64,000 nt of DNA from Oceaniferula flava (GTDB lineage: Bacteria > Verrucomicrobiota > Verrucomicrobiia > Verrucomicrobiales > Akkermansiaceae): assembly GCF_016811075.1 (NCBI RefSeq), contig NZ_JAFBGL010000001.1, positions 372,001-436,000 of the forward strand, read 5' to 3'. The position numbers were made by a program, and so were the translations under genes. The notes beneath the pieces are model-generated. The model worked only from the letters and a program-made list of their open reading frames with translations. It did not search any database and had not been told where the DNA came from. How positions within the stretch are numbered: position 1 is the first letter of the stretch; each line of letters opens with the position of its first letter. Shown piece by piece: positions 43,773 through 49,603 of this stretch.

Positions 43773-44729
43773 TTATTTCACCATCGTTCCATCCGGAAAA
43801 AAGGTTTCCCAAGCTCGTTTGAAGGAAACGGTTCCAGGCAGAAGCTTGAGCTGTTTTCCCTCCAGCTGACCTTTGGTACATTCGCCGGTGACGATGTCCC
43901 AGGTCGATTGGGTGAGAGTGTCGCGCATGCTGCCTTTTTCCTGGCTCAGTTGAAACACGAGCGGGGGGCTGGATTTCTTGTCGTCAAGGACCCGACTGAA
44001 TGCCTGAGCACGCTTGCCCTTGTCCGAGAAGGTAAACAGATAGAATTCACCCTTGTCCTTAGCCTGTATGAGTTTCTGTTTCTGCAGCAATGGCATCGCC
44101 ACAGCAATGGGCTCGGTCCCGGCATGGGGAGTGATGCCGTAGATGAAAGCGGCGGGGTTTTTCCAGACGCTTTCGGTAAACCTTTTGGCGGTGCGTGGCA
44201 GGGCGAGCAGGGTGGTCTGAGGATGGCGTTGTTTCCATTCACCCCAAGTGGTCATGCTGGCGGGGAGGATCTCAAGCGCAGAGCCCTTCATCTTCCCTTG
44301 CATCGCCGTGCCTAGCAAGTGGCTCCAGAGTGATTGGGTTTCCAGGTCGCGCATCACTAAGCTGCGCTGCCAGAGCATGCCTGAGACTTGAAAGGTGAGG
44401 GTTTTTTTATCGACGTTACGGTCATACACGATGCCGTTAAAGCAGAGGTGTCACCAGGTGGCGGCGATGTATTTGCCCCCAAGCTTGTCGTTGATGATCT
44501 CACGCGTCGGATTGGTGAGCATATTGATGGGGTAGGCACGCGAGGCTTGACCGATCGATACCCCGAGCACCAGTTCATTATCTTTGACAAATGGCTTAGC
44601 GGCTCCGGCATCAACGTGTGGAGCATCGACGATGGCCTTGAACGGCTTGACCACCTGTCGCGGTTTGAACTCCGGATCGGCGTGCAGCATGGATGGAATC
44701 ATCAGGGAGATAAGAAGAAATTTGTGCAT
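43773..44729 (-). CDS. DUF3179 protein with in-frame TGA: candidate selenoprotein (or single-stop pseudogene)
   Basis: A 318-residue frame on the minus strand with a signal peptide (MHKFLLISLMIPSMLHA) and a TGA as codon 93 (44453-44451). Before the TGA: FVKDNELVLGVSIGQASRAY, PINMLTNPTREIINDKLGG and KYIAATW. After it: HLCFNGIVYDRNVDKKTLTF, SGMLWQRSLVMRDLETQSLW and SMTTWGEWKQRHPQ, all matching DUF3179. This family normally has C-x-x-C at this place (as in YCPLC or WCPLC), so the TGA replaces the first Cys to give U-H-L-C. The frame has no other stop and no shift. Selenocysteine insertion is the favoured reading. A recent Cys-to-stop mutation is the alternative, giving a truncated 92-residue product. 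Confidence 0.75.
44418..44437 (-). promoter_or_regulatory. SECIS-like hairpin after the in-frame TGA
   Basis: On the mRNA, ACGG pairs with CCGU and CAU with AUG (7 bp, one bulged A), closing a 5-nt loop CGUGU. The loop starts 21 nt after the UGA, within the range known for bacterial SECIS elements (about 16-37 nt), and has G at its second position, as bacterial SECIS loops usually have G in the first two. No computed folding energy is available. Confidence 0.5.
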
Positions 44730-44919: not shown

Positions 44920-45498
44920 ATGAACAACATCCCCATTGAAGATCTGATGCAGCATGCCGATAGACTCTACCAGTTTGCCTTGTCGCGGGTGAAGGATCAT
45001 CACGTCGCGGAGGATTTGGTGCAGGACTGCCTGTCGGCCGGATGGCAGGGGATCGATCGCTTTAACGCAAGCTCGTCATTGAGCACTTGGCTGGGCGGCA
45101 TTATGAAATTTAAAATCATCGATCACTTTCGTCGCTCAGAACGCAGCCCGTCCGATCAATGCCAGGATGCCTGCGATGAGCGTGACACGCTTGATACGTT
45201 GTTTGACGCGCATGGATCCTGGAGGGTCGATCCGAACTATGGCCTGAAAATGCTGACCGATGCTCCGGATCAGGCGGCATCGCAAAACGAGCTGTTCGAC
45301 TGGATTAGCAGATGTCTGAAAAAACTTCCGGAGCGCCTTCATGTCCTCTTCACCCTGCGTGAGGTCGATGGCTTGGATGTGGCATCGGCAGCGGCTGCCG
45401 CTGGGGTGACCACGGGCAGCGCGGGGGTATTACTCACAAGATCGCGACAAAAACTCCGAGCCTGTTTGCAGAGCCACGGAATCACGCCGCAACCATAA
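44920..45498 (+). CDS. RNA polymerase sigma-70 factor, ECF subfamily
   Basis: A 192-residue ECF sigma factor. Region 2 is MQHADRLYQFALSRVKDHHV then AEDLVQDCLSAGWQGIDRF and LSTWLGGIMKFKIIDHFRR, with the usual aromatic and acidic positions. A linker leads to region 4 (LPERLHVLFTLREVDGLDVA then SAAAAAGVTTGSAGVLLTRS). The next gene, 9 bp away, encodes a zinc-finger protein of the anti-sigma type. It heads the arsenic gene set, so it probably drives it. The 190 bp before it contain two nearby AAGGAAT motifs but no promoter I can assign. Confidence 0.92.
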   Translation: MNNIPIEDLMQHADRLYQFALSRVKDHHVAEDLVQDCLSAGWQGIDRFNASSSLSTWLGGIMKFKIIDHFRRSERSPSDQCQDACDERDTLDTLFDAHGSWRVDPNYGLKMLTDAPDQAASQNELFDWISRCLKKLPERLHVLFTLREVDGLDVASAAAAAGVTTGSAGVLLTRSRQKLRACLQSHGITPQP

Positions 45499-45507
45499 AT
45501 CATCACG

Positions 45508-45846
45508 ATGAACAACCATTCCCCTCCGCCACCGCCACTCAGCTATCGGCTGATGCAGCGGCTGATGTGGCCGGTGCTCAAGGTGCTCGGCATGTCCTGT
45601 AAGTCGACTTACGAGCTGTGCTCTACCCAGATGGACAGGAAACTCAGCTTTTCTGAATCCCTTCGGCTGCGCTTGCATCTCCTGATTTGCAGCAGCTGCC
45701 GGCATTTGCCCGCCCAGTTCAAGGGACTGAAAAAACTGGTCCATGTTGCCTGTGACCATGACAGCGAGCCGCATCTCGATAGCACAGCCCAATTGACCGA
45801 AGAGTCGAAAGATCGCATTCGCGAATCACTCAGCAAAAAACCTTAA
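45508..45846 (+). CDS. Small zinc-finger anti-sigma-like protein
   Basis: A 112-residue soluble protein. The block LRLRLHLLICSSCRHLPAQF has the H-x3-C-x2-C metal site of zinc-binding anti-sigma factors (ZAS/zf-HC2), and an upstream Cys (CKSTYELCSTQMDRKLS) completes the set. There is no membrane helix, so this would be a cytoplasmic sensor, possibly of thiol-reactive metalloids such as arsenite. It follows the ECF sigma gene by 9 bp and precedes arsM by 24 bp. Confidence 0.75.
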   Translation: MNNHSPPPPPLSYRLMQRLMWPVLKVLGMSCKSTYELCSTQMDRKLSFSESLRLRLHLLICSSCRHLPAQFKGLKKLVHVACDHDSEPHLDSTAQLTEESKDRIRESLSKKP

Positions 45847-45870
45847 CGCTCATCCTTTCCCCATTTTCAT

Positions 45871-47043
45871 ATGACTACCCAAACTACCTCATCGTCTGAA
45901 GCCGCCACCCGTGACCGCTACGCCGCCGCTGCCCTTGCTCCCGAAGCCGCTCTTTGCTGCCCGGTTGACTACGACCCCCAATACCTGAAGGCGATCCCTG
46001 CCGAAGTGATCGAAAAAGATTACGGTTGTGGTGATCCTTCCAAGTATCTGCAGCCCGGTGAAACCGTGCTTGATCTCGGATCCGGCACCGGAAAGATCTG
46101 TTTTATTGCTTCCCAGGTCGTGGGCCCCGCAGGAAAAGTCATCGGGGTCGATATGACTGATGACATGCTGGAAGTGGCTCAGCGCAATGCTCCGGTTGTG
46201 GCTGAAGAAATTGGCTACGCGAATGTGGAGTTCCGCAAGGGGCGTATCCAAGACCTTGGCTTGGATCTCGACTTACTCGATGCCGAGTTGAAAAAACAAC
46301 CGATCACCGATGCCAACTCCTATCTGTCATCGGAGTCACTCGCCTCCGATCTCAGGATCAAACATCCCTTGATTGCGAGCGATACGGTCGATGTCGTCGT
46401 TTCTAACTGCGTGCTCAATCTCGTTGAAACTCATTTGAAGACTCAGCTCTTCGAGGAGCTTTTCCGGGTTCTTAAAAAAGGAGGCCGCGCGGTGATATCC
46501 GACATTGTGTCCGATGAAGAAATCCCGACTCATCTTCAGAACGACGCCTATCTCTGGAGTGGTTGCATTAGTGGTGCTTACACCGAAGAGGGGTTCCTCA
46601 AAGCCTTTGCCGATGCCGGTTTCCACGGTATCGAAATCCTTAAACGTGACGAGGCCCCGTGGCAAACCGTCGAGGGGATTGAGTTCCGCTCGGTCACCAT
46701 TCAAGCCTGGAAAGGCAAACAGGGTCCCTGTCTTGAGCGCAATCAGGCGGTCATCTACAAAGGCCCTTTCAGTAAGGTGCTCGATGACGATGGCCATGCG
46801 ATGGAACGCGGCAAACGTTACGCGGTCTGCGATAAAACCTTCCACCTTTATCAAAAGCCTCCCTACCGTGAGTATTTTGAGTTCATCGAACCGCTCGAGT
46901 CCGTTGCTCTCGAAGATGCGGTGGAGTTTCCCTGCGGAGCGACCCGCGAGCGCCATCCGCGCGAGACCAAAGGTGGCGACTACACCGTCACCACCGCAGC
47001 CTCTAACTGCTGTGATCCCGCCGACGGGACAAGCTGCTGTTAA
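45871..47043 (+). CDS. arsM: Arsenite S-adenosylmethionine methyltransferase
   Basis: A 390-residue ArsM that methylates trivalent arsenic using SAM. The SAM loop is VLDLGSGTGKICFIASQVVG. The As(III)-binding Cys set is likely C53 in KDYGCGDP, the Cys in VVVSNCVLNLV and the one in LWSGCISGAYTEEGF, as in known ArsM proteins. Upstream Cys pair C29-C30 (ALCCPVDYD) is also family-like. The C-terminus has extra Cys pairs (SNCCDPADGTSCC) that could bind arsenic or be disordered. Its product would feed the radical SAM enzyme ArsS encoded downstream. Confidence 0.95.
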   Translation: MTTQTTSSSEAATRDRYAAAALAPEAALCCPVDYDPQYLKAIPAEVIEKDYGCGDPSKYLQPGETVLDLGSGTGKICFIASQVVGPAGKVIGVDMTDDMLEVAQRNAPVVAEEIGYANVEFRKGRIQDLGLDLDLLDAELKKQPITDANSYLSSESLASDLRIKHPLIASDTVDVVVSNCVLNLVETHLKTQLFEELFRVLKKGGRAVISDIVSDEEIPTHLQNDAYLWSGCISGAYTEEGFLKAFADAGFHGIEILKRDEAPWQTVEGIEFRSVTIQAWKGKQGPCLERNQAVIYKGPFSKVLDDDGHAMERGKRYAVCDKTFHLYQKPPYREYFEFIEPLESVALEDAVEFPCGATRERHPRETKGGDYTVTTAASNCCDPADGTSCC

Positions 47044-47164
47044 CGGCGACTTCATCGCAGGTCTAAAAAAAAGATCATGCTTGTTGTTAAGATAATTCGT
47101 GGGGCAACGACTACACCACAGAGCACGGAGTTCAGCTCCCAGACTCGCCCTATTTTTATCCACA

Positions 47165-47500
47165 ATGAGCCAGCCAAACATCCTCGATCGTTGCTTGAAG
47201 AACTGCACCAGCAGTTTTCATCAGCAGCATGCGATCTTATGGCCCGCTGTATCACGCACCGCCAATCTCTTGGCGGTGCTCAACGTGAGTCTTTTCTTCC
47301 TTAATGGCTCGGTGAAATCAGGGGGCTATTATTTCCCCTTGCTTTCACTGTCGCTGCTAGCCTTGGCCGTTTTGCTCGTCCTGCTGCCTCTGGGGCAACA
47401 CGACAGGCTCTGGTATTACCTCGTCGTTCTCACGTTATGCGGAATTGCCGCATGGCTGTTAGGATCCAGCATTCTCTACTGGCTTCAGAGTAACGCTTAA
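47165..47500 (+). CDS. Small hypothetical membrane protein
   Basis: A 111-residue protein with three hydrophobic segments (TANLLAVLNVSLFFLNGSVK, YFPLLSLSLLALAVLLVLLP, YYLVVLTLCGIAAWLLGSSI) and a Cys pair near the start (DRCLKNC). The ATG at 47165 is preferred to 47099 because the longer form has a basic run unlike the rest. It lies between arsM and the phosphate transporter gene, which starts 19 bp later. Function unknown; association with arsenic handling is by context only. Confidence 0.6.
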   Translation: MSQPNILDRCLKNCTSSFHQQHAILWPAVSRTANLLAVLNVSLFFLNGSVKSGGYYFPLLSLSLLALAVLLVLLPLGQHDRLWYYLVVLTLCGIAAWLLGSSILYWLQSNA

Positions 47501-47519
47501 GCATCACCTCACACACAAC

Positions 47520-48635
47520 ATGATCATTCCGCTCGCCGTCATTTTAGCCGTTGCCTTTTTAGCCTATGCCAATGGAGCAAACGATAACTTCAAAGGTGTT
47601 GCCAGTCTCTTTGGCAGCGGTGTTTGTAACTTCCGAACCGCGCTCACATGGGCGACCGTCACCACCATGGCCGGAAGCATTGCTGCCTTGTTTCTAGCTT
47701 CGGCATTGTTGAAGAACTTTTCAGGAAAAGGTCTGGTGCCAGAAGCCCTTTCGGTCTCACCGGCGTTTGTGTTGGCGGTTGCCATCGGGGCAGGGGGCAC
47801 GGTCCTACTCGCGACACGTTTTGGTTTCCCCATTTCCACCACCCACGGCCTCACCGGTGCGCTCGTGGGTGCCGGCATGATGGCCGACAGTGCCGGCGTC
47901 AACTACGCGGTGTTAGGGAAGACCTTTTTAATGCCTCTCCTACTCAGCCCGTTTCTCGCCCTCGTGGTGGGTGGACTGATTTACCTGCTCTTCAAAGGGG
48001 GGAGAAAAGCGCTGGGGGTCACGGAGGAGACGTGTGTTTGCGTCGGTGAGGAATGGGTGCCTGTGCATAACAGCAATGGTTCGGCGGTCGCCAAGAGCTC
48101 GGTGACGCTGGCTGTCGACGAGACTGCGGCCTGTGAACGTCGCTATCATGGTCGGGTGTTAGGGCTGGAGGTGAAAACCTTGGTCGATCAACTGCACTTT
48201 CTCAGCGCGGGTGCGGTGAGTTTTGCGCGTGGACTCAATGACACCCCTAAAATTGCCGCCCTGCTCCTTGTCGCTGGCTCACTCAGCATCCCTTGGAGTT
48301 TGGCGATCGTGGGCGTTATTATGGCGCTCGGCGGACTGCTTCAGTCCAAACGCGTGGCCACCACCATGAGTCACAAACTCACCGACATGAACCCGGGCCA
48401 AGGACTTGCCGCCAATGTTTCCACCGCCTTGCTGGTCACGACCGCCAGCTTTCACGGTCTGCCGGTCAGCACCACACACGTCAGCGTGGGCGGATTGCTT
48501 GGCATGGGCACGGTCACCGGCCAGGCCAAGTGGAAAACAGTCATCCCAGTCCTGGCTTCGTGGGTGATCACTCTGCCCGTCGCGATCATTTTCGCAGCTC
48601 TTGCTTATTACCTCTTCAACTTTATCCAGTCATGA
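47520..48635 (+). CDS. Inorganic phosphate transporter, Pit family
   Basis: A 371-residue Pit (PiT/SLC20) permease. The duplicated signature is visible: ANGANDNFKGVASLFGSGVC in the N-terminal half and ARGLNDTPKIAALLLVAGS in the second, with the GFPISTTHGLTGALVGAG and GLPVSTTHVSVGGLLGMG blocks. About ten membrane helices. These permeases carry phosphate and also take up arsenate, its analogue. Placement within an arsenic gene set suggests it imports arsenate or arsenosugar-derived phosphate. Its stop overlaps the arsS start by 4 bp. Confidence 0.92.
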   Translation: MIIPLAVILAVAFLAYANGANDNFKGVASLFGSGVCNFRTALTWATVTTMAGSIAALFLASALLKNFSGKGLVPEALSVSPAFVLAVAIGAGGTVLLATRFGFPISTTHGLTGALVGAGMMADSAGVNYAVLGKTFLMPLLLSPFLALVVGGLIYLLFKGGRKALGVTEETCVCVGEEWVPVHNSNGSAVAKSSVTLAVDETAACERRYHGRVLGLEVKTLVDQLHFLSAGAVSFARGLNDTPKIAALLLVAGSLSIPWSLAIVGVIMALGGLLQSKRVATTMSHKLTDMNPGQGLAANVSTALLVTTASFHGLPVSTTHVSVGGLLGMGTVTGQAKWKTVIPVLASWVITLPVAIIFAALAYYLFNFIQS

Positions 48636-49603
48636 ACCCATTCCAGAAAAAACTAACAGCTGGCGGTGTCCCGCTCTCACGCGGACGTTTCGAAACTTTG
48701 CAAATCAACGTGGGTCGCAAGTGCAACCAAGTTTGCACCCACTGCCACGTCGATGCCGGGCCACACCGCACCGAGATGATGGATGAGGCCACGGCGCATA
48801 AGGTCGGCGCATGGATTCGTGAGCACCGACCTAAAATTGTCGACATCACCGGTGGCGCACCGGAGATCAGTGAGTTTTTCAACTACTTCGTCGAGACCGC
48901 ACGTTCGGTGGGTGCGCATGTGATCGACCGTAATAATCTGACCATCATCGAGACCAAATCCTACGCCTACTTGCCTGAGTATTTGGCGAAGCATCAAGTG
49001 GAGGTGGTCGCTTCACTGCCATGTTACCTCGAGGAAAATGTCGATGAACAACGTGGCAACGGAGTCTTCCAGAAAAGCATTTCAGCCCTGAGAAAACTTA
49101 ACGCAGCCGGCTACGGAACCACCTTGCCCTTGACCCTGGTTTACAATCCGATCGGGGCCAAGCTTCCGCCCGAACAGTCGCAGCTGGAAGCTGATTACAA
49201 AAGGGAACTCGAGGCTCGTTACGGCATTGTGTTCACCCGACTTTTTGCCGTCACCAACTTACCGATCGCACGTTTTGCCGTCGATCTCCGTGAGCACGGT
49301 CAGTGGGATTATTACATGGAGTTGTTAGCCAACAGCTTCAACCCCGCCACCGTCGACGGTTTGATGTGCCGCAGCACCATCAACATTGGTTACGAAGGAG
49401 AAGTCTTCGATTGTGATTTCAACCAGATGCTCAAGATGCAGCAGAGGGCTGATGGTCAACCGCTCTACCTCTGGGACATCACTCCGGAGTCGATGGCGCA
49501 GCAGGCGATTCTCACCGCGAACCATTGTTTTGGCTGCACCGCAGGCCACGGCAGCAGCTGCACCGGATCGCTGGAGCCCAGCGAACAAGTGGCCGCCATT
49601 TAA
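48632..49603 (+). CDS. arsS: Arsenosugar biosynthesis radical SAM protein
   Basis: A 323-residue radical SAM enzyme of the ArsS family (also listed as rSAM_SeCys). The 4Fe-4S site is C31-x3-C35-x2-C38 in RKCNQVCTHCHVDAGPHRTE. Downstream blocks: DITGGAPEISEFFNYFVE, DRNNLTIIETKSYAYLPEYL, ASLPCYLEENVDEQRGNGVF and NPIGAKLPPEQSQLEADYKR. A Cys-rich end HCFGCTAGHGSSCTG marks the family. In cyanobacteria ArsS moves the 5'-deoxyadenosyl group to dimethylarsinite on the way to arsenosugars. Some relatives have selenocysteine in the tail; this one has Cys. The start at 48632 is fixed by the ATGA overlap with the Pit gene. Confidence 0.95.
   Translation: MNPFQKKLTAGGVPLSRGRFETLQINVGRKCNQVCTHCHVDAGPHRTEMMDEATAHKVGAWIREHRPKIVDITGGAPEISEFFNYFVETARSVGAHVIDRNNLTIIETKSYAYLPEYLAKHQVEVVASLPCYLEENVDEQRGNGVFQKSISALRKLNAAGYGTTLPLTLVYNPIGAKLPPEQSQLEADYKRELEARYGIVFTRLFAVTNLPIARFAVDLREHGQWDYYMELLANSFNPATVDGLMCRSTINIGYEGEVFDCDFNQMLKMQQRADGQPLYLWDITPESMAQQAILTANHCFGCTAGHGSSCTGSLEPSEQVAAI

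Follow-up and report, generated by a model that had tools for sequence, protein, structure and literature searches.

The apparent stop codon in the DUF3179 gene on the minus strand of the window, i.e. the whole stretch of 64,000 nucleotides of Oceaniferula flava DNA analysed here, is almost certainly read as selenocysteine (Sec), as judged from sequence comparisons. We are highly confident that this gene would give rise to a full-length selenoprotein, with Sec inserted at codon 93 in a SelB- and hairpin-dependent manner, the product probably being an exported redox protein. The selenoprotein reading had been put forward in the initial annotation and is supported by the Sec machinery of the genome, the conservation of the TGA, a covarying SECIS hairpin and natural Cys/Sec pairs. 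Genes for selB and selC were found in the genome, and the TGA proved to be common to relatives and not a peculiarity of this strain. The features of the gene are collected in Table 1.

Table 1. Features of the DUF3179 gene, in positions of the window.
Feature	Positions	Strand	Details and basis
DUF3179 selenoprotein CDS (predicted), complete	43773..44729	-	318 codons + TAA stop, ATG start; translation, Pfam
N-terminal hydrophobic stretch, export-signal-like	44676..44729	-	by eye from translation
First repeat, predicted Rieske-like beta barrel, with Sec93 and Cys96	44160..44669	-	AlphaFold2, hhalign, VIA-align
In-frame UGA, codon 93, proposed selenocysteine of U-H-L-C	44451..44453	-	translation; TGA at this column in 51/55 placed relatives
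Proposed bacterial SECIS hairpin	44418..44437	-	7 bp, one bulged A; apical loop CGUGU (44426-44430); 20 nt after UGA
Second repeat, predicted Rieske-like, without UxxC	43776..44162	-	AlphaFold2, hhalign, VIA-align

Codon 93 (44453-44451) is the sole in-frame stop of the DUF3179 frame, one of 28 frames in the window listed by a read-through scan. It stands in the context ATW-U-HLC and is followed by 225 codons. With the TGA read through, the translation belongs to the Pfam family DUF3179 (PF11376; 9.3e-52, 176.7 bits against a cut-off of 27); no NCBIfam model matched it at E 0.01. In the alignment with Cys-type homologues (TYCPLC, VYCTLC, TWCHLC), the TGA column coincides with the first Cys of the CxxC motif. 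The coordinates, the codon counts, the location of the TGA at this Cys and the DUF3179 identity of the frame had all been given correctly in the initial annotation. Under genetic code table 11, the frame falls into two open reading frames (ORFs) of 92 and 218 aa, and a GTG located 8 codons past the TGA is a possible start of the second one.

TGA at this column was found in many other genomes, where the initial annotation had advised to look for it. A genome scan with two peptide patterns yielded 56 loci, assigned by record title to Verrucomicrobiota, Planctomycetota and Candidatus Poribacteria, and the motif could be placed in all but one of them (L103). Among the 55 placed relatives the motif codon was TGA in 51, TGC in two (L068, L079), TGT in two (L070, L082) and TAA or TAG in none, the 51:4 proportion not being an unbiased frequency as one of the patterns (IAATWCHL) was written with Cys at the motif. 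The sequence past the TGA was conserved among these relatives, which stem from separate assemblies and three phyla. Eleven scan loci were shared with an order-level draw of genomes and were counted once; the 51 loci, the window gene (L001) and L033 make up the 53 TGA loci considered below.

In a phylum-wide draw of 387 genomes, DUF3179 was present in 14, including the genome under study, and since this genome alone carried the TGA among these 14, the occurrence of TGA in DUF3179 is patchy; the further TGA members come from the order-level draw and the genome scan. In the order-level draw, 13 of the 14 genomes with a TGA had the motif context ATWUHLC. The fourteenth (L024, minus strand), from a genome of the same genus, exhibited the TGA in VYUTLC and belongs to a different DUF3179 subfamily; Cys stands there in the four further members sampled, and L024 probably represents a separate Cys-to-Sec change. 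Two single loci deserve mention as well. L100 has the motif U-P-L-T, with Thr in place of the second Cys, corresponding to the UxxT form of the reviews and indicating that the second Cys is not strictly required. In L099, stops break the frame upstream of the TGA, probably because of a frameshift in that assembly.

The machinery needed for Sec insertion was complete in the genome (3.95 Mb, 51 contigs), where the search for selA, selB, selC and selD suggested earlier detected all four. The tRNA-Sec (C9:104028-104118) scored 57.6 bits against a cut-off of 47 and was called tRNA-SeC with anticodon TCA by ARAGORN. SelB (C1:495044-496933; 310.9 bits, cut-off 242), SelA (C13:10147-11502; 499.2 bits, cut-off 267.9) and SelD (C3:6010-6936, L104; 372.1 bits, cut-off 125) were all clearly recognized. 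The SelD gene itself contained one in-frame TGA, in the context U-A-S-K. This fits UxxK, the motif listed for the selenoprotein SelD in PMC13188914, so that a second gene of the genome, from a verified selenoprotein family, has a TGA at the known place; SelD of this genome is probably a selenoprotein, too.

In the order-level draw, 288 genomes were searched, 28 of which had a DUF3179 match, 26 over the family cut-off. An in-frame TGA in the DUF3179 gene, one per gene, was present in 14 of these 26. SelA was found in all 14 TGA genomes, compared with 6 of the 12 that had only TGA-free DUF3179 genes (Fisher p 0.004, kinship ignored), and SelB in 13 of 14 compared with 6 of 12. The one TGA genome with SelA but without a SelB match (G104) is 85% complete. 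With 88 candidates scored in each genome, the tRNA-Sec model passed its cut-off in 10 of 14 TGA genomes; the 12 others yielded 7 passes and the 14 control genomes 5, and a genome without SelA or SelB match (G064) passed as well. Because this genome and the five controls pass and only 10 of the 14 TGA genomes do, we regard the tRNA-Sec model as weak evidence and as the weakest of the three machinery markers.

A bacterial SECIS prediction had been proposed as a further check, and a hairpin was found that fits the published rules and covaries among the 53 TGA loci. According to the bSECIS rules quoted in PMC13188914, the hairpin lies 16-37 nt after the UGA and has a G in the first two loop positions; the hairpin of the window, with its spacing of 20 nt and its loop CGUGU, agrees with both. 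The short stretch folds as the proposed bulged stem with -5.5 kcal/mol; when a longer stretch (45 or 54 nt from the UGA) is folded without constraints, the structure of minimum energy is a different one. Across the 53 TGA loci, the stem is made up of columns 19-23, counted from where the UGA begins, opposite columns 29-33. It was fully paired (five of five) in 50 loci, compared with a mean of 9.6 (sd 2.7, maximum 19) when synonymous codons were redrawn 2000 times according to the codon usage of the respective gene. The remaining three loci (the window gene, L061 and L072) adopt a bulged variant with a one-base bulge, in which 7 of 7 pairs form in two of them and 6 of 7 in the third. The loop started with xGU in all 53 loci. 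As controls, only four Cys homologues were available (n=4); they showed 2, 3, 2 and 2 of the five pairs.

Covariation was seen at column pair 22-30, which was A-U in 32 loci, G-C in 21 and mixed in none (Fisher p 3e-15, kinship ignored), with at least five switches on the tree. One side of this pair changes Ile (ATC, ATA; Met in L100) to Val, the other side is a synonymous change from TAT to TAC in a conserved Tyr. Selection on the protein alone is no explanation for the latter change. L060 contained a second compensated pair in the stem. In a pair count on 26 of the 53 rows, 97.7% of the cells were paired (92.1% in shuffles) and the covariation amounted to 0.324 (0.206 in shuffles), both values being reached by 0 of 500 shuffles. 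Two of the five measures did not stand out in these 26 rows, namely the pairs changed on both sides (2 versus 0.9; 25 of 500 shuffles came as high) and the further pair types (5 versus 5.1; all 500 did). L024 is able to form a different hairpin with loop UGUAU; as a SECIS element, this is suggestive only.

A quick, unrooted tree of 67 proteins (SH-aLRT support only, motif codon masked) was calculated, leaving out L097, L098 and L101, which were too short, duplicates, L042 and L103. The ATW-type sequences formed one group of 54 rows with a support of 94, within which Cys forms were nested at two places, L070 on the one hand and L068, L079 and L082 on the other hand. The tree as a whole requires at least four U/C changes; L029, L036 and L100 had long branches. 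On this unrooted tree, Sec may be ancestral in the ATW-type clade.

As to the protein itself, AlphaFold2 predicted its structure with a mean pLDDT of 88.6, and of 95.8 for the N-terminal domain. Its N-terminal and C-terminal halves repeat each other (hhalign E 3e-18, 118 columns), the UxxC being present in the first one only. In VIA-align comparisons, where a Z near 8 can reflect a common arrangement, the C-terminal half matched 1vm9 with Z 9.1 (91 residues, rmsd 2.5) and the N-terminal half 3c0d with Z 8.2 (98 residues, rmsd 3.6). Of the top 42 matches listed for the latter half, 41 were Rieske-type or NirD-like by title, the title of the remaining one (7yls) not being telling, and unrelated entries in the list had Z < 3. 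Both repeats thus had Rieske-fold matches at Z 7-9, yet Foldseek gave no match for either half against the PDB at E <=0.001. PDB sequences were also searched with a profile, which returned nothing up to E 1. No thioredoxin-type chain was among the 50 matches listed for each structural comparison, which excludes nothing.

We propose the following mode of action. SelB carrying Sec-tRNA(Sec) would bind the hairpin 20 nt past the UGA and the ribosome would insert Sec at codon 93. The product would probably be exported, considering its N-terminus, and would fold into two Rieske-like beta-barrel repeats with Sec-x-x-Cys in a hairpin loop of the first. Sec93 would most likely act as the redox nucleophile and Cys96 as the resolving residue, making the protein an extracytoplasmic selenol/thiol oxidoreductase or a peroxide-type reductase. 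That the function is one of an exported selenol/thiol redox protein is probable, going by the motif.

On the opposite strand (window 44920-49603, +), the gene is adjoined by an ECF sigma factor, a zinc-finger anti-sigma factor, an ArsM-like methyltransferase, the match of which was below curated cut-offs, and the arsenosugar radical SAM protein ArsS (TIGR04167, 424.1 bits, cut-off 300; here without TGA). These neighbours form an apparent arsenosugar gene group. To look at the surroundings of the family at large, 435 ORFs (>=90 aa, blastp 1e-8) around the 55 loci and the window were clustered. One cluster comprised 40 loci; judging by the members shown, it is the downstream half of the split DUF3179 gene. 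None of the other clusters exceeded 6 loci, although an operon may have escaped notice since many flanks are short. The clustering thus revealed no functional link of general validity to the sigma factor, anti-sigma factor, ArsM-like and ArsS neighbours.

Of the readings other than a Sec-containing thiol redox protein, the one that survives best accepts Sec insertion and assigns to the UxxC site the binding of a metal, a metalloid or a cluster in place of thiol redox chemistry. The best alignments of both repeats are with Rieske-type domains, and in this genome the sigma/anti-sigma pair, the ArsM-like methyltransferase and ArsS lie next to the gene. However, the C-x-H and C-x-x-H ligand pairs are absent from the translation, even when U is counted as C, so that by motif this is not a Rieske iron-sulfur protein, and the clustering showed no such neighbours common to the loci. 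Furthermore, judging from the order of the strands, the UxxC hairpin appears to come before the loops that, in what we take to be the Rieske topology, bind the cluster. We consider this reading unlikely. It is far less probable still that the UGA is decoded by an ordinary near-cognate tRNA or that the two parts are separate proteins. The GTG past the TGA could start the 218-aa ORF, but the TGA lies inside the first domain, as predicted with high confidence, and the exchange of U and C at the codon, the covariation of the SECIS and the presence of SelA in 14 of 14 TGA genomes all speak against it.

A nonsense mutation in a pseudogene, or an assembly error, would account for the splitting of the frame by the standard code. 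Both were rejected as highly improbable since the TGA recurs in relatives from separate assemblies of three phyla with conserved sequence downstream, no TAA or TAG occupies the column and the hairpin carries compensatory changes; the argument made at the outset, that random nonsense would rarely hit this codon, was borne out by this conservation, which excludes chance. Recoding of TGA throughout the genome, for which nothing was found, can be dismissed with near certainty since, as had been claimed, TGA is an ordinary stop in the window, terminating 10 of 40 mechanically picked, non-overlapping ORFs of at least 150 aa (TAA 20/40, TAG 10/40).

The preferred reading is thus that of a Sec-containing redox protein, and its family has been seen before. 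The initial annotation knew of no described DUF3179 selenoprotein; this was wrong. A DUF3179 domain-containing protein with UxxC/T is entered in Table 1 of PMC9312934, with MBW1804167.1 as representative, and in Table 1 of PMC13188914, with MDJ0986319.1 and under the heading 'Predicted with high confidence'; the latter paper credits it to Zhang and Gladyshev 2007. Pfam family and Sec motif are the same as in the window gene. In the text available of PMC9312934 and PMC13188914 the string 'verrucomicrobi' is absent, as is 'planctomycet' from that of PMC13188914, and no SECIS is given for DUF3179. Among other sources, PMC2398784 lists OS_HP1 with UxxC, which might perhaps, at a guess, be of the DUF3179 family; PMC4807772 reports selenoproteins in Planctomycetes with the list in its supplement, where an earlier sighting is possible; and PMC9230427 tabulates a DUF3179 protein of an Idiomarina strain without selenium. 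Among the matches listed for literature on selenocysteine or selenoproteins in Verrucomicrobia and Planctomycetes, no title or abstract dealt with the DUF3179 gene.

The window gene is therefore strongly supported as a new member of a predicted selenoprotein family that was already known. To this family the present data add a clade from Verrucomicrobiota, Planctomycetota and Poribacteria in which Sec predominates and Cys forms are nested at two places. They also add a SECIS with covariation, a separate Sec in a further DUF3179 subfamily and the prediction of a two-repeat Rieske-like fold that lacks Rieske ligands. Since the standard code cuts the protein at residue 92 or starts it internally, a selenoprotein conserved in many Verrucomicrobiota and Planctomycetota has probably been misannotated. 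With its own covarying SECIS and its natural Sec/Cys pairs, the clade is well suited to studying what makes bacteria retain or lose selenium. We tentatively put forward a wider proposition, which may well fail in one or another of its parts: that DUF3179 is a tandem Rieske-fold family without iron-sulfur ligands and with its UxxC redox site in a different hairpin, constituting a new fold class of UxxC selenoenzymes, and that Sec is ancestral in the Verrucomicrobiota/Planctomycetota/Poribacteria clade, Cys having been derived at least twice.

Compared with known systems, the protein shares features with two groups. The thioredoxin-like UxxC selenoproteins (Trx, Grx, DsbA/DsbG-like; Table 1 of PMC13188914) also have a UxxC in which Sec is replaceable by Cys. 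Their likeness to DUF3179 ends at the fold, predicted to be mostly beta for the latter. Rieske [2Fe-2S] ferredoxins and NirD-like domains are the best structural matches of both repeats. DUF3179 differs from them in having neither C-x-H nor C-x-x-H, in its tandem repeat and, presumably, in carrying its UxxC in another hairpin. If true, a Rieske-like fold would be unexpected for a UxxC protein.
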